Assembly: GCF_014698035.1 (NCBI RefSeq)
Contig: NZ_JACJSF010000041.1
Location: forward strand, 1-64,000
From: Desmonostoc muscorum FACHB-395
GTDB taxonomy: Bacteria > Cyanobacteriota > Cyanobacteriia > Cyanobacteriales > Nostocaceae
Reading direction: 5' to 3'
Length of the DNA stretch: 64,000 nt
This document shows, one piece after another, positions 1,413 through 15,755 of the stretch. Both the position numbers and the translations under genes were made by a program. Under the pieces are notes generated by a model that worked only from the letters and a program-made list of their open reading frames with translations, was not told the DNA's origin and made no database searches. Within the stretch, counting starts at the first letter, position 1, and the number at the start of each line of letters is the position of its first letter.

Positions 1413-3089
1413 CTAACGTTGAGTTTTTTGTTGATAAATTTGCGGCGCAAGAATCACTTGAATTTGCTTTTCTTGGCATCTTTGAGAAAAAACGCTAATT
1501 TCTTCAGACTCGTCTCCCTCAATTGATAAAGATCGTAAAAATCCTTGAAATCCTAAAAAAGCTAATTCGTAAATGGCTTTTTGAGTAAAATCACCTCCAA
1601 AATAGCCTGTGTGGGTATCAATACCTTGAGGATCTCTATTGTTAATAGACTTCCGAATAAATGCCAAGGTTAGGAGAATATAATTCCCAAAATTTATCGC
1701 TGGCTTTTGGATGGCAGAACTAACAATTCCGATCTTATCCATCCGGTCATCTTTATAATCTGTACAGTCAAAATATGTAAATAAATCTGCGGGTTGTACC
1801 CACTCTTCTGACATTTTAGTTATCTCTTCAAGTTTTCTATGTTCGCTACTAGAAGAACGGATTTCTAAATATTTATAAGGGTTGTCAAGTCTATAACCTT
1901 TGCCATAGTCTTGCTTTTGCAAATTAACAACTCCATATCTGGGTGCGTGACCCACTAAATCATTTTTATTGTTGAAATGCTTAACTGTTATATTACCAAG
2001 CCTGTATCCACTAATACGAGTTCGCGCTGGGAAGCTAAAATAATTTGCAGCAGTAGAGGTAAATCGTAACGCTAAGTCTCCCTCATTACAAAATATATAA
2101 GCTTCTTCGCAGCGACGTAAAGAAGAACGAAGAAAATTAGCACGTCCTGGAAAGATACTTTCTACAGGAATATCAGGTGCAACTAGCACAAGTCTCCCTA
2201 ATCTAAATACATTGCCAATATCCGAATCCGGTTTTTTATTAATAGATTTTACATCAAAAACATCAGAGAGAATACGAATTACATTTGTAACTACAAAACA
2301 TCCCATACTATGACCAATAAAAGATAATTTAATCCGTTTATTTCGAGGCAGCTTTACCGTATAATCAAGCTGTCTAATCAATTCAACTAAATCTGTAACT
2401 CCGTAATTAGTCGCTCTATAAGTATCACGAAAATAAGTAGATAACCTAAGAATAATTAATGTAAAAATAATCGCAGATACAATGCCAGATAAAATTAACA
2501 TTGCTGTGAAAAAATGGACAGCGCCATTACTCAAAATATTTAAGAATAATAAAGCTATAGCAGACCATATACTAATTGTTAGTCCCAGAGCTAAATTAAT
2601 AGCTAGTAAAGTTGGTAGAGAAGAAAGTGCGTTGATTAGCTTTTGCCCAAAAGAACCAGACTCATCCGTTTTTGTGGGATTTTCCGATGGCCATCTATAT
2701 CCAATAAAAATATACTTATTTGGTTGCTGAATAGACGTATTAATATATTCATAAATCTTTTTGCAGCCTGTCTCTGTATCCGATGGTGTAGAACTATATC
2801 CATGAATATTTATAATAATTTCTGGTTCGGGGCTTGATTCCAAAGTTTTAGCAATTTTCTCAATCATGTCTTGGGTTGAAGGTTCAGCTTGTCCATCATT
2901 GATATTAAAAAGCTTTTTATTAGCAACTAATGATAAATATTTATTAGAATTATGTTCTTCTGTTTCAACGTTCAGTTTGGCAGTACTAACTACTAAATAG
3001 CCAGGAATTTTTTCCTGATTAGTTTTTTTAAATTCATAAATTTTATACGGTTGATTGTCTGGCAGATTTTGATTATCACAATAGTTCAT
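1413..3089 (-). CDS. membrane-anchored alpha/beta hydrolase (lipase/esterase-like, DUF900-like)
   Basis: 558 aa. Seen: an IIINIHGYSS strand-loop (about residue 90), IGYRWPSE, then two strongly hydrophobic helices (about 160-215), then the nucleophile elbow SFIGHSMGCFVV with the serine of GHSMG, followed by LVLVAPDIP, which usually precedes the acid residue. This is the fold of serine hydrolases in the DUF900/alpha-beta group. The two membrane helices inserted before the elbow suggest it works at a membrane. It is the last gene of a four-gene leftward unit: its AAAGGA site directly follows the stop of the preceding gene, only 15 nt away. Inference: in a unit with a lipoxygenase it may release fatty acid from membrane lipid; the substrate is not shown by sequence. 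Confidence 0.7.
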   Translation of the reverse strand: MNYCDNQNLPDNQPYKIYEFKKTNQEKIPGYLVVSTAKLNVETEEHNSNKYLSLVANKKLFNINDGQAEPSTQDMIEKIAKTLESSPEPEIIINIHGYSSTPSDTETGCKKIYEYINTSIQQPNKYIFIGYRWPSENPTKTDESGSFGQKLINALSSLPTLLAINLALGLTISIWSAIALLFLNILSNGAVHFFTAMLILSGIVSAIIFTLIILRLSTYFRDTYRATNYGVTDLVELIRQLDYTVKLPRNKRIKLSFIGHSMGCFVVTNVIRILSDVFDVKSINKKPDSDIGNVFRLGRLVLVAPDIPVESIFPGRANFLRSSLRRCEEAYIFCNEGDLALRFTSTAANYFSFPARTRISGYRLGNITVKHFNNKNDLVGHAPRYGVVNLQKQDYGKGYRLDNPYKYLEIRSSSSEHRKLEEITKMSEEWVQPADLFTYFDCTDYKDDRMDKIGIVSSAIQKPAINFGNYILLTLAFIRKSINNRDPQGIDTHTGYFGGDFTQKAIYELAFLGFQGFLRSLSIEGDESEEISVFSQRCQEKQIQVILAPQIYQQKTQR

Positions 3090-3104
3090 CAGGTATATTT
3101 CCTT

Positions 3105-3701
3105 TTACAATTTAGGTTCAGATATCGTAATCGCTTTTTGTTGATTTGAGTGGTGTGCAATCACTAAACACTCATTTTTTACCCTAGAAAGCATATCGTT
3201 AAAAGCAGGAGTATAACAACCATCTTTATCAACAACCTTACGGAGAGTATACTCACCAGCCCTAGAAATTCCACCGAACCAAACGTTTTTCCTGTGCCAA
3301 ATATCTCCATTAAGAGAATTTTTGTCTTGGGACATTGTACAACTTACAATCAATGTTGAAATTGGTATTCCCAGCAAAATAGGGATAATTTGAGCTTGTT
3401 GCAACGTTTCATCTTCAAATTGAATTTTATAAGTTACTTTAAACCATTGAATTAAACGTAGTAATATCCAACCCGCAATCGAGTTATGAAAAGTCCACTG
3501 GAACGGTGAAAAAATTGGTAAAACCAAAGTTCTATTCTGTGTGTTCCATTCCAAATTGTACATAGTAATGCAAGTATCTGGTAGGGGATTACCATCCATA
3601 AAGAACACACCATTCAGGATAGATGGTAAGTTTGTTTCTTTGATTGGAATCATCCAGGTTGCAATATTATCGAGTTGATTTTTTTCAATTAATTCAGCCA
3701 T
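3105..3701 (-). CDS. hypothetical protein in the lipoxygenase-P450 unit
   Basis: 198 aa, no family recognised. The protein has a moderately hydrophobic centre (FHNSIAGWILLRLIQWFKV and IIPILLGIPISTLIVSC), which may be membrane-associated, and a polar C-terminus with an HH pair (VIAHHSNQQ). No signal peptide or known cofactor motif. It lies between the P450 (124 nt upstream) and the hydrolase (15 nt downstream), all on the same strand, so cotranscription and a role in the same pathway are likely but unproven. Confidence 0.65.
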   Translation of the reverse strand: MAELIEKNQLDNIATWMIPIKETNLPSILNGVFFMDGNPLPDTCITMYNLEWNTQNRTLVLPIFSPFQWTFHNSIAGWILLRLIQWFKVTYKIQFEDETLQQAQIIPILLGIPISTLIVSCTMSQDKNSLNGDIWHRKNVWFGGISRAGEYTLRKVVDKDGCYTPAFNDMLSRVKNECLVIAHHSNQQKAITISEPKL

Positions 3702-3825
3702 AGTTATTTTTAATTCATAATGGGCTACGCCCCACTACGCTAACGTAATTCGTAATTAATACACATTCAAAAAACACTTTACAAACATCCCTTAACTCAA
3801 AACTGCCAACTCCTAACTTTATTAC

Positions 3826-5175
3826 TCACAGTAGTTGAGTAAAACCTTGTAGCACTAAATTATTAGGAGTAACGGCAGTCACTTTTTCAAAATCCCATTT
3901 GACTTCTGTAATTGAGTCCCATTGATAGTTCTGGAACAGATGTAAACAGAAAATCTTGATAAAGCCAATTGATAAGGATTTACCAGGACAGGCTCGCTCA
4001 TGCCCTTCACCATTCCAAGATAAAATATCTGAAAAATTCCGTGTTAGGTCAAAATCATCTGGATTTTGGTATCTGTTGGCATCTCGATTAGCCGTAAGAA
4101 TAGAGCCAAGCAAACGAGTACCTTTTTGGAATGGACATTTTTGTTCTCCAATCTCAACTTCACCCCCTTCAGTGGTAAGTTGGCTAACAAACCGCACAGG
4201 TGGATAGAGACGAGCCGTTTCTAGAATCACTTGATTGAGAAGTGTTAACTGTTCTAGAGCGTCTGGGTCTAAAGTTTTCTTACCATTCCAGACTGCATTA
4301 ATTTCTGACACTACATCATTTCTGAGAGTATTATTCAAGCAGAGAACACCAATAACTGATCCTAAAAGCGCACTAGTGCCGGCAGTACCAGCGATATGAA
4401 TCATATCGAAAAGGGTATTAGCAATTTGGTGTTCGTTCAATTGATACTGAGCGCCTGTTTCAAAGTAAGATGCCCATTTAGCTGATTGTTTATATCGCTT
4501 AGTTAAATATTGACGATGCCGAATTTTTGGCGCTGTTAATATTGCCAGCAGATACTTGTTAATAAAATTAGGCAAGGATGCGAGAGCCAAACCTTTAATG
4601 TAACTATCGGATGCTGTGATTTCTTCCTCAGATAAAGATATCTGAAAAACCAGTTGATGCAAAACTGATAGCATAATCTTTGGCAAATCGTTGCCGATGT
4701 GTAATTTGCCTTTTTTAGCAGCTTCTAACAAGCTTTGCTCAACTAGATTCCCTAAAAAGTCTATCTTTTGAGAGGGTTCTGGTAAGGCTTGTAAGATTAC
4801 ACTACGTAGTCCTGTGTGTTCGTTACCGTTCGTTCCCAAGCTCAGAGGATTATCAAGCAGGTAGCTAGGAGCTAATATTCTGATGATGCCTAAATCATTT
4901 CCCCGCAGTTGTGGTTGAGTTTGCATTAGTTCCCTTACCTGGGAGTAAGAGGAATGCATAATTGCTTGGTCTACCGCAAAATATTTGTCTCCAATATTGT
5001 CCTTACGGATGTAGAGAAAGTCCCGCCACGCTTTGAGTATGATTGAGGCATCTGTATAATAGAAAATCAAACGCAGAAACTTGCCGATCGCAGTGTCATA
5101 ACCTACTTTGTCTAGTATAGGTGCAAGCCATAGCTGGCGATCGTGACCTTTGAGAACTTTATCTTTAAGTGTCAT
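3826..5175 (-). CDS. atypical cytochrome P450, possibly a CYP74-like hydroperoxide-transforming enzyme
   Basis: 449 aa. P450 landmarks: HTGLR in the C-helix, ETAR (E319, R322) for ExxR, PPVR, a DFDLTR meander, and heme ligand Cys396 in GHERACPGK. Two sites are not canonical. The I-helix reads AGTAGTS (262-268), with no acid before the Thr, and the heme loop lacks the usual Phe and Gly (Gly at -7, His at -4). In known families, loss of the acid-alcohol pair goes with enzymes that rearrange hydroperoxides without O2/NADPH (CYP74 allene oxide synthase and hydroperoxide lyase, prostacyclin synthase). It lies 54 nt downstream of a lipoxygenase, which would supply such a substrate. P450 identity is firm; the CYP74-like role is inference. 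Confidence 0.85.
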   Translation of the reverse strand: MTLKDKVLKGHDRQLWLAPILDKVGYDTAIGKFLRLIFYYTDASIILKAWRDFLYIRKDNIGDKYFAVDQAIMHSSYSQVRELMQTQPQLRGNDLGIIRILAPSYLLDNPLSLGTNGNEHTGLRSVILQALPEPSQKIDFLGNLVEQSLLEAAKKGKLHIGNDLPKIMLSVLHQLVFQISLSEEEITASDSYIKGLALASLPNFINKYLLAILTAPKIRHRQYLTKRYKQSAKWASYFETGAQYQLNEHQIANTLFDMIHIAGTAGTSALLGSVIGVLCLNNTLRNDVVSEINAVWNGKKTLDPDALEQLTLLNQVILETARLYPPVRFVSQLTTEGGEVEIGEQKCPFQKGTRLLGSILTANRDANRYQNPDDFDLTRNFSDILSWNGEGHERACPGKSLSIGFIKIFCLHLFQNYQWDSITEVKWDFEKVTAVTPNNLVLQGFTQLL

Positions 5176-5188
5176 AATATTTACTGTT

Positions 5189-5222
5189 ATTTGTCATTTG
5201 TCATTGGTCATTTGTTATTTGT
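5189..5222. repeat. degenerate heptamer array (TTTGTCA type) between lipoxygenase and P450 genes
   Basis: Tandem, slightly diverged copies of TTTGTCA fill most of the intercistronic gap. The same unit, or its complement AAATGAC, recurs at 25921-25941, 44430-44450, 57074-57115 and 58704-58738. Confidence 0.7.
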
Positions 5223-5229
5223 CCCTAAT

Positions 5230-7122
5230 TCAGATATTGATGCTCTGAGGAATTTTAGAAGGAAGTAGATACTCATAGGGTGGACGGTGCAAATTACGTT
5301 GCTTGATGGTATCTTCTACCTGCTGAAGATTACTTTGGAATGCCTGCAACAATGGTTTTATTTTTTGGTCTGTAAAATATCCTTGCTGATATTCGCCCAG
5401 CTTGTTGTAATACACAGATCCCAATAAGCTGAGTAGGTTGTATTGCCGTTGCGCTTGATCTAAAGGGGGGAGCAAATTAAGGTAGTCTTGTTCAGTAACT
5501 TCTCTTTTAAGAGTTGAGGCTGGTAAATAACCTGCCATTGGTATAGCTGCGGCGTAGCCCATCAAATCTTTTTGCGGAAAGTTAACGGCTGCATGTTGGG
5601 CACTGGCAGTAAAAATAATCAGTGTAGTGGCATCAATTAGGTAATTTAGGGTTTTTATGCCCCCATCTTCGCCAAAATCGGGGATACGGCCACCATCGTA
5701 AGCTGAGATTTCGGCTGCCCACGCTTGCAGGGCTGTGTCTTGATGAATGTCTTCATCGGTGGTGTAGTAAAGGTTTAGGTAGTCCCAAACCCATTGATGA
5801 ATAGCATCCCATACTAATAATGCGTCATCCCGGTAAGGATAAATAGGTAAGAGATTAGGATCATCCACACCGCGCTGTTGGAATTGCTTAGGTAAGATGG
5901 CACTATTGAAACTATAGCTTTGCAACCCTAGCACCGCTAAAACGCGAGAATTATCGATTGATGCTGAGAGTAATCTATCGACACCACCGCCTGGAGCAAT
6001 GAGAGTACGTTGGGCAGCATCGTTAATTGCTAATGTGCTGTCAAAATGCGGGTGCAGCAGGATTTTGAGGGGATGTGTAAGTGGCAATTGTCGAGCAGTT
6101 GCGATCGCAAAAACACCAATCAAAAGATGAGTTCTTGCTAGGTGAGTAACAGCTTCGTGGATGTTAGCATCTGCTATTTGGACAACTGTTTTGGCAAAAA
6201 GCCAAGCGTATTTACCGGAGTTAGGGGTAACGATCGGATAATCTGGGTCTGGGGTTTGACCGCATTGAATGGCTATTGGACGCAATAGACGGGCGGGGTC
6301 TGAACCTTTGGGTAAGGCAAACAGTGCTAAGGGAGCATAGAGATATTTTTGCTCGTGTGGGAATGTACCGTTGATCGCACCATCTAAAATTTTATAGTCA
6401 GCTAAGTAGAGCCTGCCCTCAAGTCCTGCTGCTGCTAATGAATCGTCAGTTCCCATCACTGCTTGGTAATCTTCGTCTGTGACTGGGAAGCGATCGCTTA
6501 GAGTAGTTACTCGCTCAATCATTACGGGATTGTAGCCAGCCACTCTCATGTACGCAAATACTTGATCTTCCTGGTAAGTTTTAGCGATGGCTGGTAGACT
6601 AATCACCGGAAACAAATTTTCGTAGTCCTTGAGACTAGTTGCATGTCCTGTAGGCTGTCCTTCATATAGAAGGTTAATTATCCTATTTAGAGCATCTCTG
6701 AGGATCACAAGTCCGTTTTCTTTCAGAATAGAATGAAAAAGCTCGTCAAGTTCTCTAAAATCCTTAGATATCCCTTTGAGCAAAAGCTGAGGGATAATTT
6801 GCAGGATTCTTGCCAGAATGCTTATTCGGGCTGGTACTGCTCCCTTAAGCAAGGCTTCTAAAATAAATCTTTCGACATCATCACGAATCGATTTAGAATC
6901 TTGATTGCCTCTGTTGACAATCAAGGTATTGATAAAAAGAACTCGTAACTGCTGGGCTAATAAAAAATACCAGTTAGTGGTGAACTCTTCCGTAATAGAA
7001 AGCTGATCCACCATCGCAATAGATGGAATATGGTTGTAGTTATATTGATACTCTTGCCTAGCTATATCTAAAGTATGAGTACTTGATGAACTGATTGAAT
7101 GATCTGGTGATAAAGCAGTCAT
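5230..7122 (-). CDS. lipoxygenase
   Basis: 630 aa. Non-heme iron dioxygenase that adds O2 to polyunsaturated fatty acids. Iron ligands are visible: His327 and His332 in THLARTH, His510 and Asn514 in HAAVNF, and the C-terminal Ile630 (SINI), the usual carboxylate ligand. The stretch HPLKILLHPHFDSTLAIN matches the plant/cyanobacterial lipoxygenase core. It lacks an N-terminal PLAT/C2 domain, having instead about 120 helical residues, so it is shorter than plant enzymes (about 850-900 aa) but in the usual range for bacterial ones. First gene of the leftward unit, followed by P450, unknown protein and hydrolase. Regio- and stereospecificity cannot be read from sequence with confidence. Confidence 0.93.
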   Translation of the reverse strand: MTALSPDHSISSSSTHTLDIARQEYQYNYNHIPSIAMVDQLSITEEFTTNWYFLLAQQLRVLFINTLIVNRGNQDSKSIRDDVERFILEALLKGAVPARISILARILQIIPQLLLKGISKDFRELDELFHSILKENGLVILRDALNRIINLLYEGQPTGHATSLKDYENLFPVISLPAIAKTYQEDQVFAYMRVAGYNPVMIERVTTLSDRFPVTDEDYQAVMGTDDSLAAAGLEGRLYLADYKILDGAINGTFPHEQKYLYAPLALFALPKGSDPARLLRPIAIQCGQTPDPDYPIVTPNSGKYAWLFAKTVVQIADANIHEAVTHLARTHLLIGVFAIATARQLPLTHPLKILLHPHFDSTLAINDAAQRTLIAPGGGVDRLLSASIDNSRVLAVLGLQSYSFNSAILPKQFQQRGVDDPNLLPIYPYRDDALLVWDAIHQWVWDYLNLYYTTDEDIHQDTALQAWAAEISAYDGGRIPDFGEDGGIKTLNYLIDATTLIIFTASAQHAAVNFPQKDLMGYAAAIPMAGYLPASTLKREVTEQDYLNLLPPLDQAQRQYNLLSLLGSVYYNKLGEYQQGYFTDQKIKPLLQAFQSNLQQVEDTIKQRNLHRPPYEYLLPSKIPQSINI

Positions 7123-7784
7123 TGGCTCTACTCATGTGTAGTACTGAAAAATTTAACACTTGAGGATAAACAGGTTTGAGTTACTAACTTTCGGCCAAAG
7201 GAACAGGCAACAGTGAAGATTTTTGGTTAGATGCGGATCTTGTTCGCTCGACCTTTCATCGGGTCAGAAGCCCCGTCCCAATGACACAATTGTGTTGGAC
7301 GGGTTAACAGTCCCCTTCCAACTCCTGCCCTATTCCCTATTGCCTTTACCTAAACTTATTATCGCAATCAAGTTTGAAATTTTGATTTTTCTAAAGAAAT
7401 TTTCTGGAATTTCTCAACTCCTGAGCCACACGCTAAATGTTTCGAAATTTTGCAAGGAATATTGAGCGCTACAAATGATACTTGCCAAGATTTAGAAACA
7501 ATTCCTCAATAACACTTTTGGACTAAAGTACTGTGTTTAAGTTGACATTTTAACTACTGAAACAACATCAGGAAGACGATTATTAGATTCTTCTGCTTCC
7601 TATGTCTCCAATTTTTCCTTTACTTACACAGTGATGGAATATTCTTTTCTCTTACCCTCTCTTATCAAAAATCTATCTCTACTTGACAGCTTTTCTCCTT
7701 CAACAGTTAGAAGCAGCGAATTTTGCTCCCATGCAAAGCTAGCTATCAGGGCAAGTTCTCATACTGTGGCAAAAGGATTAATTT
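7123..7784. other. divergent promoter spacer, 0.66 kb
   Basis: Separates the leftward lipoxygenase unit from the rightward aldo/keto reductase, so both promoters should be here. It carries a common Nostoc spacer repeat (about 7258-7345, GGTCAGAAGCCCCGTCCCA onward) that creates an accidental 80-codon frame. No regulator site was identified. Confidence 0.5.
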
Positions 7785-8822
7785 GTGGATATTAACAGAC
7801 GAGATTTACTGAAGCTAGTTTCTGCTTCTGGTTTAGGTGGAGCTGGGGTATTTGCTTTACAAGGTTTCACTAAACAGGTTTTAGCGCAAAATCAGCCTAC
7901 CCCACTCCAGATAAAAAAAGGTGAAATGCTCTACAGGCAACTAGGACGCACCGGAGAACAAGTATCTGTAATTGGTCTAGGTGGTCATCATATTGGTAGA
8001 CCAAAAGATGAGCAAGAGGGTATTAATCTGGTCCATACTGCCCTCGATCGCGGGATTAATTTTATGGACAATAGCTGGGATTACCATAACGGAGGTAGCG
8101 AAATTCGCATGGGTAAAGCTCTGCAAAATGGTTATCGTCAAAAAGCTTTTCTGATGACTAAAATTGACGGTCGCACAAAGGCGGCCGCTACTAAACAAAT
8201 TGATGAATCTTTAAAACGTTTGCAAACAGACCGCATTGATTTATTGCAGCATCATGAAGTCATTCGTATGGAAGACCCAGACCGGATTTTTGCCCCTGGT
8301 GGTGCGATGGAAGCAGTTGTGGAAGCACAAAAAGCTGGCAAGATTCGCTACATAGGCTTTACTGGACACAAAGATCCTTTAGTACACCTGAGAATGTTGG
8401 AAGTTGCCAATCAGAACAACTTCCGTTTTGATGCAGTGCAGATGCCGTTAAATGTTATGGATGCCCATTTCCGCAGTTTTGAGAGGCAAGTTTTACCCAA
8501 ACTGGTTAAGGACGGAATTGCTGTATTGGGGATGAAATCAATGGGCGACCAAAACATCCTCAAAAGCAATGTGGTCAAACCTATCGAATGTCTGCATTAC
8601 GCGATGAATCTGCCAACTTCAACGGTGATTACAGGCATTGAAAGTATGCCCATCTTAAACCAGGCTTTCGAGGCAGTACGTACTTTTACACCCATGAGCC
8701 AGGAACAAGTTAAAGCATTACTGAATCGGACTCGCCAAGCTGCTCTTAAAGGTCAGTATGAACTGTTTAAAACCACTAGCCAATTTGATAGTACAGCCAA
8801 AAATCCTGAGTGGTTAGGATGA
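7785..8822 (+). CDS. aldo/keto reductase with Tat signal peptide
   Basis: 345 aa. N-terminus NRRDLLK followed by a hydrophobic stretch and an AQ-type cleavage region (LAQNQ, about residue 35) is a twin-arginine signal, so the enzyme is probably exported folded with its cofactor. The mature part is an aldo/keto reductase: LGRTGEQVSVIGLGG, the active-site Asp/Tyr region NFMDNSWDYHNGGSE, Lys in TKIDGR, and RIDLLQHHEV. NAD(P)H-dependent; substrate unknown. The start is GTG with AAAAGGA about 7 nt upstream. It is transcribed away from the lipoxygenase unit. A Tat-exported aldo/keto reductase is somewhat unusual because nicotinamide cofactors are cytoplasmic. Confidence 0.9.
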   Translation: MDINRRDLLKLVSASGLGGAGVFALQGFTKQVLAQNQPTPLQIKKGEMLYRQLGRTGEQVSVIGLGGHHIGRPKDEQEGINLVHTALDRGINFMDNSWDYHNGGSEIRMGKALQNGYRQKAFLMTKIDGRTKAAATKQIDESLKRLQTDRIDLLQHHEVIRMEDPDRIFAPGGAMEAVVEAQKAGKIRYIGFTGHKDPLVHLRMLEVANQNNFRFDAVQMPLNVMDAHFRSFERQVLPKLVKDGIAVLGMKSMGDQNILKSNVVKPIECLHYAMNLPTSTVITGIESMPILNQAFEAVRTFTPMSQEQVKALLNRTRQAALKGQYELFKTTSQFDSTAKNPEWLG

Positions 8823-9008
8823 GTTTTAACCAAACGGATCTTGGGTTTAAGACCCCGACTCAATCAAACACGGGCTTTGGTAATACGACTATTTAAAAAA
8901 GCCGCAGCAGATTGTTGTACCCAATTGGTTAAGACATGAATGGCACGTTTGTTAATCGCAAAACCCTGATATAACTTGCTTTTTGAGTGTGGGGAGTGTG
9001 GGGAGTGT

Positions 9009-9049
9009 GGGGGTAAGACTTCTTCCCCGTCCTCCCACACCTCCCACAC
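9009..9049. repeat. dispersed imperfect palindrome, copy 1 (GGGGGTAAGACTTCTTCCCC core)
   Basis: 41 bp identical except for one base to 17469-17509. It lies inside a larger imperfect inverted repeat made of GTGTGGGGA units on the left and TCCCACACC units on the right (about 8986-9051). It sits between convergent genes and may fold as a terminator-like hairpin. Confidence 0.75.
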
Positions 9050-9099
9050 CCTGCCCTGACGAGCTTTCAGCTTTTCTTAGTGCCATTCGGTTAAGACAT

Positions 9100-9858
9100 C
9101 TAAGCATTCATACCGCCATCAACATCAAGTGTTGCACCGGTGATGAAAGCCGCATCAGGACTAGCGAGAAAAGCGACCGCAGCTGCAACTTCCTCTGGCT
9201 TACCGTAGCGGTTGAGCGCTGTGGCTGCTTTTTGGATTACCGCAAAATCACTATCAGATGGGTTCATATCAGTTTCAATTGGGCCTGGCTGTACAACGTT
9301 AACTGTGATCGCCCTCGATCCCAGGTCACGTGCCCATCCGCGCGTGTAGCCAGCGATCGCAGATTTAGTTGCTGAATAATCGGAGATTCCTGGCCAAAGC
9401 GAATGGGTTCCAACACAGGAGCCGATGGAGATGATCCGTCCACCTTCAGTCATGAGTGGTGCAGCCGCGCGGACGGCAGCCACTACGCCACCAACATTGA
9501 TCGCAAACTGCCGTTCTAAGGATGCAATATCGCTTGCAGGATCGCCAACTACACCAAGGACAAATACACCAGCGTTGTTCACGAGAATATCGAGACGACC
9601 AAAGCGTTCGGCGACCATCTTAACCAAATTCCCCACCTGGAGAGGATCGGCTTGGTCGGCTTTGAAGGCGGCGGCCCTAACGCCTTTTTCTTCGAGTTCC
9701 CGGACAACGATCGCGGCCGTTTCAGATGAGTTGGCGTAACTGATGGCAATGTCTGCGCCGTCTTCAGCCAAACGTTTAGCGATCGCAGCACCAATACCCC
9801 GTGAACCACCTGTAATGAGGGCAACTTTACCTGTGAGTTTCTTAATATTGCTATTCAT
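9100..9858 (-). CDS. SDR family oxidoreductase (FabG-like)
   Basis: 252 aa, typical classical short-chain dehydrogenase length. Seen: nucleotide-binding TGGSRGIGAAIA (about 14-25), NNAG (about 93-96), catalytic Ser in ISIGSCVG, catalytic YSATK (Tyr/Lys), and PGPIETDMNP after it; C-terminus ITGATLDVDGGMNA is characteristic of the family. An NADP preference is suggested by the SRG turn. The substrate cannot be named; many FabG-like SDRs in Nostoc are stand-alone. AAAGGAG precedes the ATG at good spacing. The gene appears monocistronic. Confidence 0.92.
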   Translation of the reverse strand: MNSNIKKLTGKVALITGGSRGIGAAIAKRLAEDGADIAISYANSSETAAIVVRELEEKGVRAAAFKADQADPLQVGNLVKMVAERFGRLDILVNNAGVFVLGVVGDPASDIASLERQFAINVGGVVAAVRAAAPLMTEGGRIISIGSCVGTHSLWPGISDYSATKSAIAGYTRGWARDLGSRAITVNVVQPGPIETDMNPSDSDFAVIQKAATALNRYGKPEEVAAAVAFLASPDAAFITGATLDVDGGMNA

Positions 9859-10292: not shown

Positions 10293-13200
10293 ATGTTTAA
10301 ATTAATTGCTCACATCCCTGACTATAGTATTACAAGTTTAATTTATGAAGCTGCTGCCACAGTAATTTATCGAGCATACTCCAAGGCTAACGGACACTCA
10401 GTTGTTATCAAACTGCTCAAAGCAGAGTATCCCAGTATCAAAGAGATTGCCCAACTCAAGCACGAATACGAAATCATCCAAAATCTGAATATTGCAGGTG
10501 TAATTAGAGCTTATGAATTAATCAGTTATGACAACGGCTACAATAATGGTCTAGCACTGGTTTTAGAAGACTTTGGTGGAGAAACCTTAAAACATCAGAT
10601 ATCTACGACAGGGATTGAACTTACAAAATTTCTTAATATTGCCAATCAAATTACTGAAACATTGGGAGAGTTACATACCCATCACATTATCCATAAGGAT
10701 ATTAAGCCCGAAAACATTCTTTATAACCCCAATACCGAAAAAATAAAACTGATTGATTTCAGCATCGCTTCGCTGTTATCCAAAGAAAGTCCAGAAATTA
10801 CTAGCCTCAACCTTCTAGAAGGAACACTGGCTTATATGTCGCCAGAGCAGACCGGACGTATCAACCGAACCTTAGATTATCGGACAGATTTTTACTCATT
10901 AGGTGTCAGTTTCTACGAAATGCTGACTGGTCAGCTTCCCTTCCCCAATGCTCAAGACTCAATGGAGTTGGTGCATTGTCACATTGCGAAAATTCCTGTA
11001 GCTCCGCACGAGATTAATCCTAATGTACCACTGGCAATCTCTGCGATCGCTATGAAACTTCTAAGCAAAACTGCTGAAGACCGTTACCAGAGTGCTTATG
11101 GGTTAAAGGCTGACCTAGAGCAAGCAGCAATACAACTACAAACAAAAGGCAGCATTGACCTTTTTAGCTTAGGTCAACAGGATTTTTCGCATCAATTCCA
11201 AATAGCTCAAAAACTTTATGGTCGGGAAGTAGAAGTAGCAGCTTTAATGGCTGCCTTTGAAAAAGTTAGTCTTGGTTCCAGCGAAGTTGTGTTGGTAGGA
11301 GGATACTCAGGTATCGGCAAATCCTCACTAGTTAACGAAGTTCACAAACCGATTGTGCGGCAACGAGGTTACTTCATCGGTGGCAAATTTGACCAACTCA
11401 AGCGAGATATTCCTTATGCTTCTTTGATTCAAGCATTTCGAGAATTGATGCGACAACTATTAGCTGAAAGCCAAGCCAGAGTTGAGGTTTGGAAAAATAA
11501 ATTACTACAAGCATTGGGAGCTAATGGTCAAGTTATTATTGATGTCATCCCGGAAGTAGAATTGATTATCGGACAGCAAGCGCCTGTACCGCAGTTAGGC
11601 GTTGCTGAGTCTCAAAACCGTTTTAATCGGGTGTTTAAGCAATTTATCCATGCGTTTACTGCTGCGGAACATCCCTTAGTACTGTTTTTAGATGACCTCC
11701 AATGGGCAGATGCCGCCTCTGTGAACCTGGTCGAGAATATGATGACTGACCCAGAAAGTCAGTATCTTTTGCTGATTGGGGCTTACCGAGATAACGAAGT
11801 TAGTCCCACCCATCCACTGATGCTAATGCTAGAGACAATTCAAGCATTTGGGGCAACCGTTGAAGAGTTACTTTTGAAGCCATTAGCAGCACCTCATATT
11901 ACTCAACTGGTTACTGACACGTTCAATTGCGAATCATCTCAGGCAGAACCTTTAGCTGATTTGCTATTTCAAAAAACCCAAGGTAATCCCTTCTTCTTGA
12001 CTCAGTTACTAAAAGTACTGCATCAAGATAATCTTTTGACATTTGATTATCGTTCGGGTTTCTGGAAGTGGGATCTCAACAAAATTCAGGAACAAGCCAT
12101 TACCGATAATGTGGTCGATTTAATGGTGAATAAAATTCAAAGGCTCTCAGAATCAACGCAGCAAGTTTTACAATTAGCTGCTTGTGTTGGGAACCGTTTT
12201 AATTTAGAAATTCTAGCTGTAGTAAATGAAAAATCTCCATCAGCAACAGCAGTTGATTTATGGGAAGCTTTGCGGGCGGGATTAATTCTACCCTTAAGCG
12301 ATACTTACAAAATTCCTCAATTGTTGAATCAGTCGGAATTGGCAACTTACTGCGATACTGCGATACAAGTTGACTATAAATTCTTGCACGATCGCGTTCA
12401 GCAAGCTGCCTATTCTTTAATTCCAACCGATCAGCAACAAGAAGTGCATCTGAAAATTGGAAAACTACTATTACATAATACTGAAAAAGCCCAGTTAGAA
12501 GAACATCTTTTTGATATCGTCAACCATCTCAATGCTGGTAGTTCATTGATTGTGGAAATAGCAGAAAGATATGAACTGGCAGAATTAAATCTGAAAGCAG
12601 GACAGCGAGCAAAATCATCTTCGGCGTTTGTAACTGCACTCAAATTGCTGAAAATAGGGATGAGTTATCTACCTGATAAAACCTGGCAGGATAATTATTT
12701 ACTCACGTTAAGTTTATATTTACAATCTGGAGAAGCAGAATTTTTAAATGGAAAATATGAGGAAGCTTTGCTGATTTTCGAGCAGACTTTCAGCCAGGTT
12801 AAAACTACTCTTGATATGTGTCGGGTGAATGAATATCGGATTATGTGTTATCGCATGGAGAATGATTTAAACTCCGCATATAAAATTGGGCTAAACACCT
12901 TGGAACTTTTAGGCTTGGAGTTTACAGCTTATCCCGATGATGCATATCTGTTAGAAAAACTTAATCATACCAAAAAAGTTATTGGCGATCGCTCAACCTT
13001 TAGTCTCGCAGAACTACCGCCAATGCAAGACGAAGAGAAGTTAATGGCTCAACGCATCTTAAAAGAAGTCTGGCCTATTGCCTACTTTTTAGGATCTAAA
13101 GCGTTGCATATCACATCAATGAATATAACTCAACTTTCAGTTCAGTATGGCAACTCACCGATTTCTGTATTTGGTTACATGCTGTATTCCTTCAACTTAG

Positions 13201-15755
13201 TATTTGAATATGGTGAGGTAGATTCAGGTTATGAGTTTGGTGAGCTATCTCTGCGTTTGCATGAAATTTTAAGAACGAAAGAATTAGAAGCGAATATTTT
13301 GAATATGTGGGGAGGTTTAATCTGTCACTATAAAGACCATATTAGCCAGGCAAAACCTTATTTATTGAAGGGATTTAATAGTGGTTTAGAAACAGGTTCT
13401 TATCAATGGTCTGGTTATTGTTCAGTTAATTTTTTATGGCAATGCTTATTTGGCAATGAATCTTTAGAAAAAACCGCAGAAGTAGCCAAAGATTTTATTC
13501 CTAGCCTCCGCAAGATTGACAAAAATATGTTGAACTACCATCTGCTGGCTATGGAAGCGATCGCTAACTTGACTAAGCCAGCAGGCAAGATTGACGAACT
13601 TGTTGGCACTTGGGCAGATGAACGGCAAGTGCTAGAGTTTGCGTTAGCATCTTCGGATATGTTGAGTGCATTTGTGGTTTACATCTATAAACTGGCACTC
13701 TGTAACTGGTATGGAGAGTATACCAAAGCTGTTGAGTATGCAGAGAATGCCGAAAAATTTGTTGCGGGAGCGCGAGGAATTTTTATTAATCCTGTTTTCT
13801 ATTTTCACCAAAGTATTGCCTTAGCAGAGGCTTATGCGGAGGTAGATATCGCAACTCAAGTCATTTATCTGCATAAACTAAATACCAACTTAGAAAAATT
13901 CCAGCAATGGGCAATGCACTGCCCAACCAATTATCAACACAAGTTTCTGCTGATTCAAGCTGAAATTGCTCGGATTTCTAAACAAGATTATCAGGCAATG
14001 GAGCTGTACGATCTAGCGATCGCTTCTGCTGCCGAAAACGGTTATTTACAAAATGAAGCCTTAGCAAACGAACTCGCATTTCGATTTTACTTGGACAAGG
14101 ATAGAATAAACTTTGCCAAAGTTTATTTTAAAGAAGCCCGCTATCGCTATCTCAAATGGGAAGCTACGGGTAAAGTTCGGCAACTGGATGAACAATACTC
14201 CCAACTTTTTAGAGATCCAGCCGGGGAGGTAAATGGGCGTAGTACGGCTACAAAGCAGATTCGGGATATTTCTGAAGCTAAAACCCAAACTCTAGATTTA
14301 AGCACAGCAATTAAAGCGTCTCAAGCACTCTCAAGCGAGATGGAGTTAAATCCTCTGCTAGAGAAAATGATGACGATTGCGATCGAGAATGCTGGTGCCC
14401 AAATGGGTTATCTACTTGTAAAACGAGAGAACCAGTGGGTGATTGAAGCCGAAGGAAGCATTGATCGAGATGAGGTGACAGTGCGATCGTCTAGTCTGTT
14501 TCAAGTAAAGCATAAGCTACCAGTTTTGCTGATTAACTATGTTGAAAGAACAAAAGAAAATTTGGTTTTAGACGATGCTAGCCACACAGAGCGTTTTGTA
14601 AGTGACAATTATATTGTTGCCAATCAACCCAAATCAATTTTGTGTTTGCCTTTCTCTCATCAGGGTAAGCTGACTGGAGTTCTTTACCTGGAAAATAACC
14701 TCACTACCGGAGTCTTTACCGCAGATCGATTAGAAGTACTGAACTTATTAACTTCACAAGTTTCCATCTCTATAGAAAATGCTCGGCTCTACACAAATTT
14801 GCACATATACTCCCAGGAGTTAGAAATTTCAGAAACACAAGCGCGTGAGAAAGCAAAGCAGCTAGAACACACGCTCGATGAATTGAAGCTTACCCAGTCT
14901 CAGATGGTGCAAAGCGAAAAAATGTCTAGCCTAGGGCAGTTGGTGGCAGGTGTTGCTCACGAAATTAATAATCCAGTCAGCTTTATCTACGGCAACCTGA
15001 CCTACGTAAATAATTATGTCAAAGACTTGATGAGTGTAGTACAACTTTATCAGCAGCAAAACCAGAATTTACCACCTCAAGTTCAAAATGAAATAGATGA
15101 AATTGACTTAGATTTTTTGATGGAAGACTTACCGAAGCTGTTAGCTTCCATGCAAGTGGGAACCGATCGCATTCGTCAAATTGTATTATCTTTACGAAAC
15201 TTTTCCCGCCTAGACGAAGCTGATGTTAAAGCCGTTAATATCCATGAGGGCATTGATAGTACCCTAATGATTTTGCAAAATCGGCTCAAACCGCAACCAG
15301 ATTCTCCCGGAATTCAGGTAATACAGGAGTATGGCAACCTGCCACCTGTAGAGTGCTACCCTGGACAACTGAATCAGGTATTTATGAACCTGCTCGCAAA
15401 TGCGATCGACTCTTTAGAGGAATTTAACGAACATCGGACTTATGCCGATATCGCACTTCAGCCAAGTATCATTACAATTCGTACTACTGTTGAAGGCGAT
15501 TTCGCCGTCATTCGCATTGCTGACAACGGTTCTGGTATCAGTGAAAATGTGCGATCGCAACTCTTCACACCCTTTTTTACTACCAAAGCTGTTGGTAAAG
15601 GCACTGGTTTAGGGCTATCTATTAGTTACCAAATTGTGACTAAAAAGCATCGAGGACAGTTAGAATGTGTATCCCTTTTAGGACAAGGGGCTGAATTTAT
15701 TGTTTCTATCCCCCTTCAGGCAAGGCTAGTACCGCAAGGCGGAATTAAAAATTAA
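10293..15755 (+). CDS. HstK-like hybrid: Ser/Thr kinase - AAA ATPase - GAF - histidine kinase
   Basis: 1820 aa. N-terminal eukaryotic-type kinase (about 1-275): VVIK lysine, HKDIKPEN catalytic loop at 134-141 (HRD replaced by HKD), IDFS in place of DFG, SPEQTGR activation segment, degenerate Gly loop. Then an AAA_16-type ATPase with P-loop [10 protein letters not shown] (about residue 340) and Walker [14 protein letters not shown] long helical, TPR-like middle follows, then a GAF domain (about 1345-1490), a coiled coil, and a histidine kinase with His1556 in [10 protein letters not shown]-box [14 protein letters not shown] and [10 protein letters not shown]. No response regulator domain is attached. 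This architecture is that of the HstK family of Nostoc/Anabaena. Cytoplasmic (no membrane segment); signal unknown. It stands alone. Confidence 0.93.

Follow-up and report, generated by a model that had tools for sequence, protein, structure and literature searches.

What becomes of the hydroperoxide made by a cyanobacterial lipoxygenase (LOX) whose gene is followed by that of a cytochrome P450? The question is raised by four leftward genes within the first 64,000 nucleotides of contig NZ_JACJSF010000041.1 of Desmonostoc muscorum FACHB-395 (this whole stretch is called the window below), which encode a LOX, an atypical P450 that we call type 1, a small protein (ORF3) and a membrane alpha/beta hydrolase (Table 1). 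An earlier note on this DNA had read them as a putative oxylipin operon in which the hydrolase frees a fatty acid, the LOX makes a hydroperoxide, the P450 rearranges it and ORF3 assists. Our analysis points to a three-gene oxylipin cassette, probably consisting of a 13-LOX, an O2-independent P450 that would rearrange the hydroperoxide, and ORF3, which would act on the resulting epoxide. The details on which the earlier note relied held up: the coordinates of the open reading frames gave four same-strand genes with gaps of 54, 124 and 15 nt; the LOX iron ligands H327, H332, H510, N514 and C-terminal I630 were all found in the window sequence; the P450 has its heme motif (ExxR at E319/R322 and SWNGxxHERxCPG with Cys396); and the hydrolase has a GHSMG elbow at residues 259–263 and two hydrophobic stretches (approximately 154–190 and 189–221). 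Promoter-like and terminator-like matches at the locus were not above those in shuffled sequences (23 versus 20.6 and 5 versus 4.7, respectively) and therefore do not demonstrate a single transcript; we infer the one-transcript organization of the cassette.

The order of the first three genes is conserved far beyond chance. In a class-wide search of 388 sampled genomes, the window's own included, the type-1 P450 subfamily was present in 13, with 63–95% identity to the window protein in the other 12. LOX, P450 and ORF3 followed each other on one strand in 11 of those 12, or in 12 of 13 counting the window; in the thirteenth genome (G282), P450 and ORF3 begin at a contig end, and a LOX match on another contig stops 5 nt short of that contig's end. 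A second scan, of named genomes (Nostoc, Calothrix, Rivularia, Leptolyngbya, Adonisia, Leptothoe and others), gave 51 loci. The named cassettes closest to that of the window come from Nostoc strains. ORF3 follows the P450 in all 51 (in L061 the contig ends inside ORF3), and in 46 the cassette LOX lies ahead of the P450. The exceptions are contig ends in L068 and L099; L077 and L078, where no cassette LOX lies upstream, with no visible technical reason, and the gene found there is one that we take to be isoleucyl-tRNA-synthetase-like (the genome of L077 has a 75% identical LOX elsewhere); and L106, where a LOX of 39% identity lies further upstream with one gene between. Across 45 loci the median gaps within the cassette were 59 and 106 nt, and the pairwise identities of the three proteins (medians 0.63–0.68) correlated at 0.82–0.92, as common descent alone could explain. 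One genome of the window's genus (G191) has none of the three genes. The gene order in related genomes thus upholds the proposal that LOX, P450 and ORF3 form a functional unit.

Some loci differ in their details. The protein between the LOX and the most divergent P450–ORF3 pair, in L106 (Mastigocoleus testarum; 7172–9763), has 863 aa and carries an FAD oxidoreductase (DAO) domain; it also shows a weak D-Ala-D-Ala-ligase-like match. A Trichormus assembly (L083:10001–12770 and L019; G107) has the cassette P450 tandemly duplicated between LOX and ORF3. The remnant of a lost cassette is found at L176:9518–9837 (G391), where P450 residues 356–401 are fused straight to ORF3 residues 128–188.

The window LOX is a known kind of enzyme. 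It matches Pfam PF00305 (E 1.3e-59), among solved structures it is closest to chains named Arachidonate 15-lipoxygenase (E 1.4e-118), and the three His, the Asn and the C-terminal Ile listed above are invariant in 12 aligned cassette LOXs. Pfam gives PF00305 alone in the 630-aa protein, and a LOX–catalase fusion of the Anabaena 7120 type was rejected. We liken it, by length alone, to NpLOX1 of Nostoc punctiforme PCC 73102, which also has 630 residues (PMC10177866, in part). NpLOX1 is described in passages of PMC10487465 as a linoleic acid 13-LOX with a preference for alpha-linolenic acid; according to the same passages, 13-LOX-derived hydroperoxides, mostly non-esterified, were raised in injured cells. 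P450 or ORF3 neighbors of NpLOX1 are not mentioned in the passages of either paper.

The second protein belongs to the P450 superfamily by its profile (PF00067, E 1.5e-20, the match being limited to residues 244–428), its ExxR and its Cys heme ligand, and its heme stretch differs from the usual FxxGxRxCxG. We aligned 38 type-1 P450s, the window protein and 37 of the 52 P450s from the 51 loci. E319, R322, S386–N388, R394 and C396–G398 were invariant among them, H392 and E393 were kept in 37 and G389 in 35. The I-helix reads HIAGTAGTSA in the window and AGT(A/L)GTS in all 38 rows, residue 265 being Ala in 35 and Leu in 3. The acid/threonine pair of the (A/G)Gx(D/E)T motif, by which O2-activating P450 monooxygenases are recognized, is absent from every row. 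As a control, we looked through the collected loci for reading frames carrying both ExxR and the usual heme motif. Of the 12 frames obtained, 7 were of another LOX-linked family (type 2, below; some of them the same genes in overlapping regions), and the pair is kept in each of the remaining 5. None of the five lies directly beside a LOX. The control is small and limited to P450s whose heme motif is the standard one. Nor is it fully independent: in L181 one of its P450s shares a row with a type-3 gene (below) and an epoxide hydrolase, and in L176 another is found roughly 1 kb away from the cassette remnant. Because the O2-activating residues are absent, the type-1 P450 would fit a hydroperoxide-rearranging enzyme; CYP74 enzymes, according to parts of PMC10813956, work without O2 or redox partners and differ in their I-helix groove. 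A search of plasmids with the P450 gave 12 records, every one below 36% identity.

Two very divergent P450 or P450-like families stand beside further cyanobacterial LOX genes. LOX was present in 107 of the 388 genomes, and we read 20 further LOX regions. In five genomes the LOX is followed by a P450 of 492–511 aa (type 2; Pfam E 1e-44 or better in four members tested), whose I-helix, AGVYPGGA, has no acid/threonine pair (four of five members aligned). In four other genomes among the 20 regions it is followed by a protein of 448–499 aa (type 3) with an aligned ExxR (ECAR), a heme-like HAGRICPGK and the I-helix A(G/A)LQGPLHLG, likewise without the pair (7 of 13 members aligned). A class-wide profile search found type 3 in 13 of the 388 genomes, and LOX was present in all 13; by coordinates, the type-3 gene adjoins LOX in eight, lying upstream of it in G357 and G366, and adjoins ORF3 in three. 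LOX–P450 adjacency was thereby found in at least 25 of the 107 LOX-bearing genomes (12 of type 1, 5 of type 2 and 8 of type 3). In a tree of 47 LOX rows the five type-2 partners form one group (100/100) and six type-3 partners are scattered, with the split LOX of L180 left out and some long branches unsure. In the PDB the type-3 profile matched only CCR4-NOT subunit chains (E 5e-4 to 8e-4), which were taken as chance.

The open reading frames were listed for 12 of the 13 type-3 neighborhoods (all but G366). An epoxide-hydrolase-like protein with HDWG directly follows the type-3 gene in three of them, a patatin-like phospholipase follows LOX and the type-3 gene in two (G109 and G125), and the other seven have neither. 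These neighbors suggest that type-3 pathways may begin with lipid release and yield an epoxide, and such hints concern the type-3 family, not directly the window P450.

ORF3 was matched in 19 of the 388 genomes (in G141 as a fragment), and LOX was present in all 19, against the background of 107 in 388. Because ORF3 stays behind the P450 even in L077 and L078, which lack an adjacent LOX, and partners two P450 families, its target is more likely the P450 product, or the P450 itself, than the LOX. The claim that ORF3 assists was too vague, as ORF3 accompanies the P450 rather than the LOX. Thirteen members of the family searched against Pfam gave three one-member matches only (best E 0.035), the best PDB match of the family profile had E 0.78, NCBIfam gave no convincing match, and a search of plasmids gave nothing useful.

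The hydrolase, which the earlier note had counted as the fourth gene of the operon, is a lineage-specific accessory. It belongs to the DUF900 alpha/beta hydrolases by its GxSxG and its profile match (PF05990, E 1e-10, 42 bits against a cut-off of 20.5) and is possibly an acyl hydrolase. It adjoins the cassette in only 5 of the 51 loci, each with Nostoc in its title. The window's genus was covered by 53 genomes, of which 22 have the full P450 (G391 has a 50-residue remnant) and 16 a hydrolase match at E 1e-20; in 10 of these 16 the hydrolase copy is at least 80% identical. The P450 is present in all 10, and by coordinates the two are adjacent in 8, which is 8 of the 22 P450-bearing genomes; the hydrolase lies elsewhere in G412 and in pieces on another contig in G407. 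With these counts we rejected it as a core member. In two other genomes an unrelated patatin phospholipase comes after LOX and P450, which indirectly backs the role in lipid release proposed for the hydrolase.

From the 13-LOX record of NpLOX1 and the shared length we propose a sequence of lipid release, 13-hydroperoxide, P450-made epoxide and an ORF3 step. In some Nostoc, free fatty acid would be supplied by the membrane hydrolase that closes the row, and the LOX would convert free linoleic or linolenic acid, most likely into the 13-hydroperoxide. Instead of activating O2, the P450 would take this hydroperoxide as both substrate and oxygen donor and rearrange it to an epoxide (an epoxy alcohol or else an allene oxide), and ORF3 would act on the reactive epoxide or shelter it, through cyclization, hydrolysis or lactonization. 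We infer every chemical step of this pathway. A wider reading, possible if somewhat doubtful, is that three or more divergent P450 lineages without the O2-activating pair were recruited as LOX partners and that ORF3 is a new enzyme family turning their reactive epoxide into a cyclic oxylipin, as a counterpart of plant allene oxide synthase (AOS) and allene oxide cyclase (AOC) or as a maker of an epoxy-lactone. Gloeolactone, an epoxy-lactone, is recorded from a cyanobacterium in parts of PMC5450532; a link to the cassette would be speculation.

A number of observations weigh against the proposed cassette pathway. In the PDB profile search CYP74A2 came fifth (E 2.6e-6), behind four other P450s, and a larger P450 profile gave no CYP74 at E 1e-5 or better. 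In the HMMER alignment with CYP74A2, the "WNG" of the type-1 heme stretch falls near "WsNG", but Ala262 is placed opposite the I-helix Asn, which is part of the hydroperoxide-binding groove of CYP74; with this Ala and the rank of the other P450s, the CYP74 clan was rejected for type 1. The Asn of plant AOS is apparently dispensable in fungal allene oxide synthases (PMC13049297, in part). Some O2-using P450s also lack the threonine. Many LOX genes that we read have no P450 neighbor, and one genome (G129) has a 72% identical LOX with neither P450 nor ORF3. The assignment of type 3 to the P450s is weak, with 20–22% identity to the window P450 (blastp E 1e-3 to 3e-6), no Pfam match at E 0.001 in four members tested and no P450 among the PDB matches of its profile; in G131 and G057 the type-3 gene is beside neither LOX nor ORF3. 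ORF3 itself matches no described family or solved structure by sequence and has no adjacent P450 in G188, G057 and G141, the last a fragment.

That the best PDB profile matches are P450s outside CYP74 speaks for a conventional, O2- and ferredoxin-dependent monooxygenase that would hydroxylate or epoxidize LOX products such as hydroxy or keto fatty acids, and cyanobacteria do possess ferredoxin. CYP110A1 of Nostoc 7120, moreover, is predicted to be a fatty-acid omega-hydroxylase in parts of PMC7014017. We nevertheless think this unlikely, given that the acid/threonine pair kept by all five control P450s is missing from the 38 type-1 rows and from both other LOX-linked families, and that the open reading frames and Pfam matches of the window's four genes include no reductase or ferredoxin. 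A P450 that needs no O2 could also be a hydroperoxide lyase cleaving the chain into aldehydes or a peroxygenase-type enzyme using the hydroperoxide to oxidize a second molecule, with ORF3 disposing of the products. This shares the active-site logic of the rearranging P450 that we prefer, CYP152-type peroxygenases are among the profile matches (E 2e-5 and, with the larger profile, 4e-6), and the 10S-dioxygenase product of Nostoc punctiforme can pass to a catalase-related lyase (PMC13049297, in part). The epoxide hydrolases beside the type-3 gene point instead to an epoxide, albeit next to a different P450-like family. CYP152 peroxygenases carry an Arg-Pro in the I-helix, but residues 258–269 hold none in the 38 aligned rows; CYP152 fatty-acid peroxygenases were rejected as the class of type 1, and we regard the lyase or peroxygenase function as quite unlikely.

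A further alternative dispenses with any signal or defense compound and has the cassette clear lipid hydroperoxides that arise under light or oxidative stress. The photosynthetic hosts have polyunsaturated membranes, and the occurrence of the cassette is patchy (13 of 388 genomes). A LOX, however, produces hydroperoxides itself, and a dedicated one makes little sense for removal alone; the hydrolases or lipases that end some rows, in turn, suggest the supply of a substrate. Detoxification therefore seems highly improbable, and an O2-independent, hydroperoxide-rearranging P450 between LOX and ORF3 remains the reading that we favor.

The plant LOX–CYP74 cascade (AOS, hydroperoxide lyase and epoxyalcohol synthase, with AOC) likewise leads from a LOX to a P450 without the usual O2-activating residues, and it is by analogy with it that a small protein acting after the P450 is proposed here. 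Unlike in plants, the P450 is not a CYP74, ORF3 has no detected relative and the genes form an operon-like bacterial row. LOX is found with a catalase-related hemoprotein in Anabaena 7120 and Acaryochloris. Such systems, among them the 10S-dioxygenase of N. punctiforme (PMC13049297, in part), also join a bacterial dioxygenase to a heme partner that uses the hydroperoxide, but the partner is a catalase relative and that of the cassette a P450. In the fungal dioxygenase–P450 fusions (linoleate diol, allene oxide and epoxy alcohol synthases), as described in parts of the same paper, a self-sufficient P450 isomerizes the hydroperoxide of the dioxygenase; there a heme dioxygenase is fused to the P450, whereas the cassette has a LOX and separate genes. 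Where LOX, type-3 gene and epoxide hydrolase stand in a row, the arrangement is similar to the Myxococcus xanthus route, in which a LOX and an epoxide hydrolase give hepoxilins and trioxilins and the abstract names no P450 (PMC5760719). We did not find the cassette described among the matches listed in the literature searched, with subscription papers mostly outside coverage, which is weak evidence of novelty; the words "lipoxygenase" and "oxylipin" do not occur in the cyanobacterial P450 survey PMC7014017.

If the proposed pathway is true, many cyanobacteria would have a clustered LOX–P450 pathway whose P450s belong to families other than CYP74 and whose small protein probably deals with an unstable epoxide. 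The cassette, present in many filamentous cyanobacteria, looks like a bacterial counterpart of the plant wound-signal lipid pathways. It opens the fate of cyanobacterial 13-hydroperoxides to a direct test and is relevant to the number of times that P450s needing no O2 arose beside LOX. The Pfam P450 model misses type 3 in all four members tested, and annotation may therefore hide part of such biology.

Table 1. Coordinates of the four window genes and of the type-3 loci and rows (G, genomes; L, loci)
Feature	Position	Strand	Basis or remark
LOX, 630 aa, first gene	5230..7122	minus	PF00305, iron ligands
Atypical P450 (type 1), 449 aa	3826..5175	minus	PF00067, ExxR, Cys heme motif
ORF3, 198 aa	3105..3701	minus	P450-linked family without convincing sequence match
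Membrane alpha/beta hydrolase (DUF900), 558 aa	1413..3089	minus	PF05990, GHSMG elbow
Type-3 loci	L117, L119, L120, L128, L151, L152, L154, L178-L182		
LOX, type 3, epoxide hydrolase (G141)	L128:8679-13438		HDWG; solved epoxide hydrolases, E 2e-77
LOX, type 3, epoxide hydrolase (G236)	L179:4762-9002		HDWG; E 2e-35
Type 3, epoxide hydrolase, no adjacent LOX (G131)	L181:7217-9602		E 9e-36
Very large patatin/DUF3376 proteins after LOX and type 3	L119:3229-7356, L120:3950-7756		candidate lipases feeding the proposed pathway

Two more genes of the window, at 7785–8822 and 9100–9858, presumably encode an aldo-keto reductase and a short-chain dehydrogenase/reductase; they were rejected as cassette parts, as clustered relatives occur in only 7 and 6, respectively, of 52 neighborhoods (window included). 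Look-alikes of a large protein at 10293–15755 on the plus strand, which we take to be kinase-like, flank the type-2 LOX loci L113, L116 and L118. Such kinases are common in these genomes, and the association may be chance. Other LOX genes have neighbors of their own. In G131 (L114:6387–10535) the LOX is preceded on the same strand, at a distance of 144 nt, by a protein of the animal-haem-peroxidase type (Pfam E 1e-112), and at L121:9069–12261, as also in L122 and L124, the LOX is followed by a protein of 416–420 aa, of which the L121 member gives a weak adenylate/guanylate cyclase domain match (E 5e-5). The window's own genome has a second, shorter LOX on contig C228 (L029:8832–10550; 572 aa, 40% identical) without a P450 neighbor, and a relative in G357 has a type-3 gene directly upstream.

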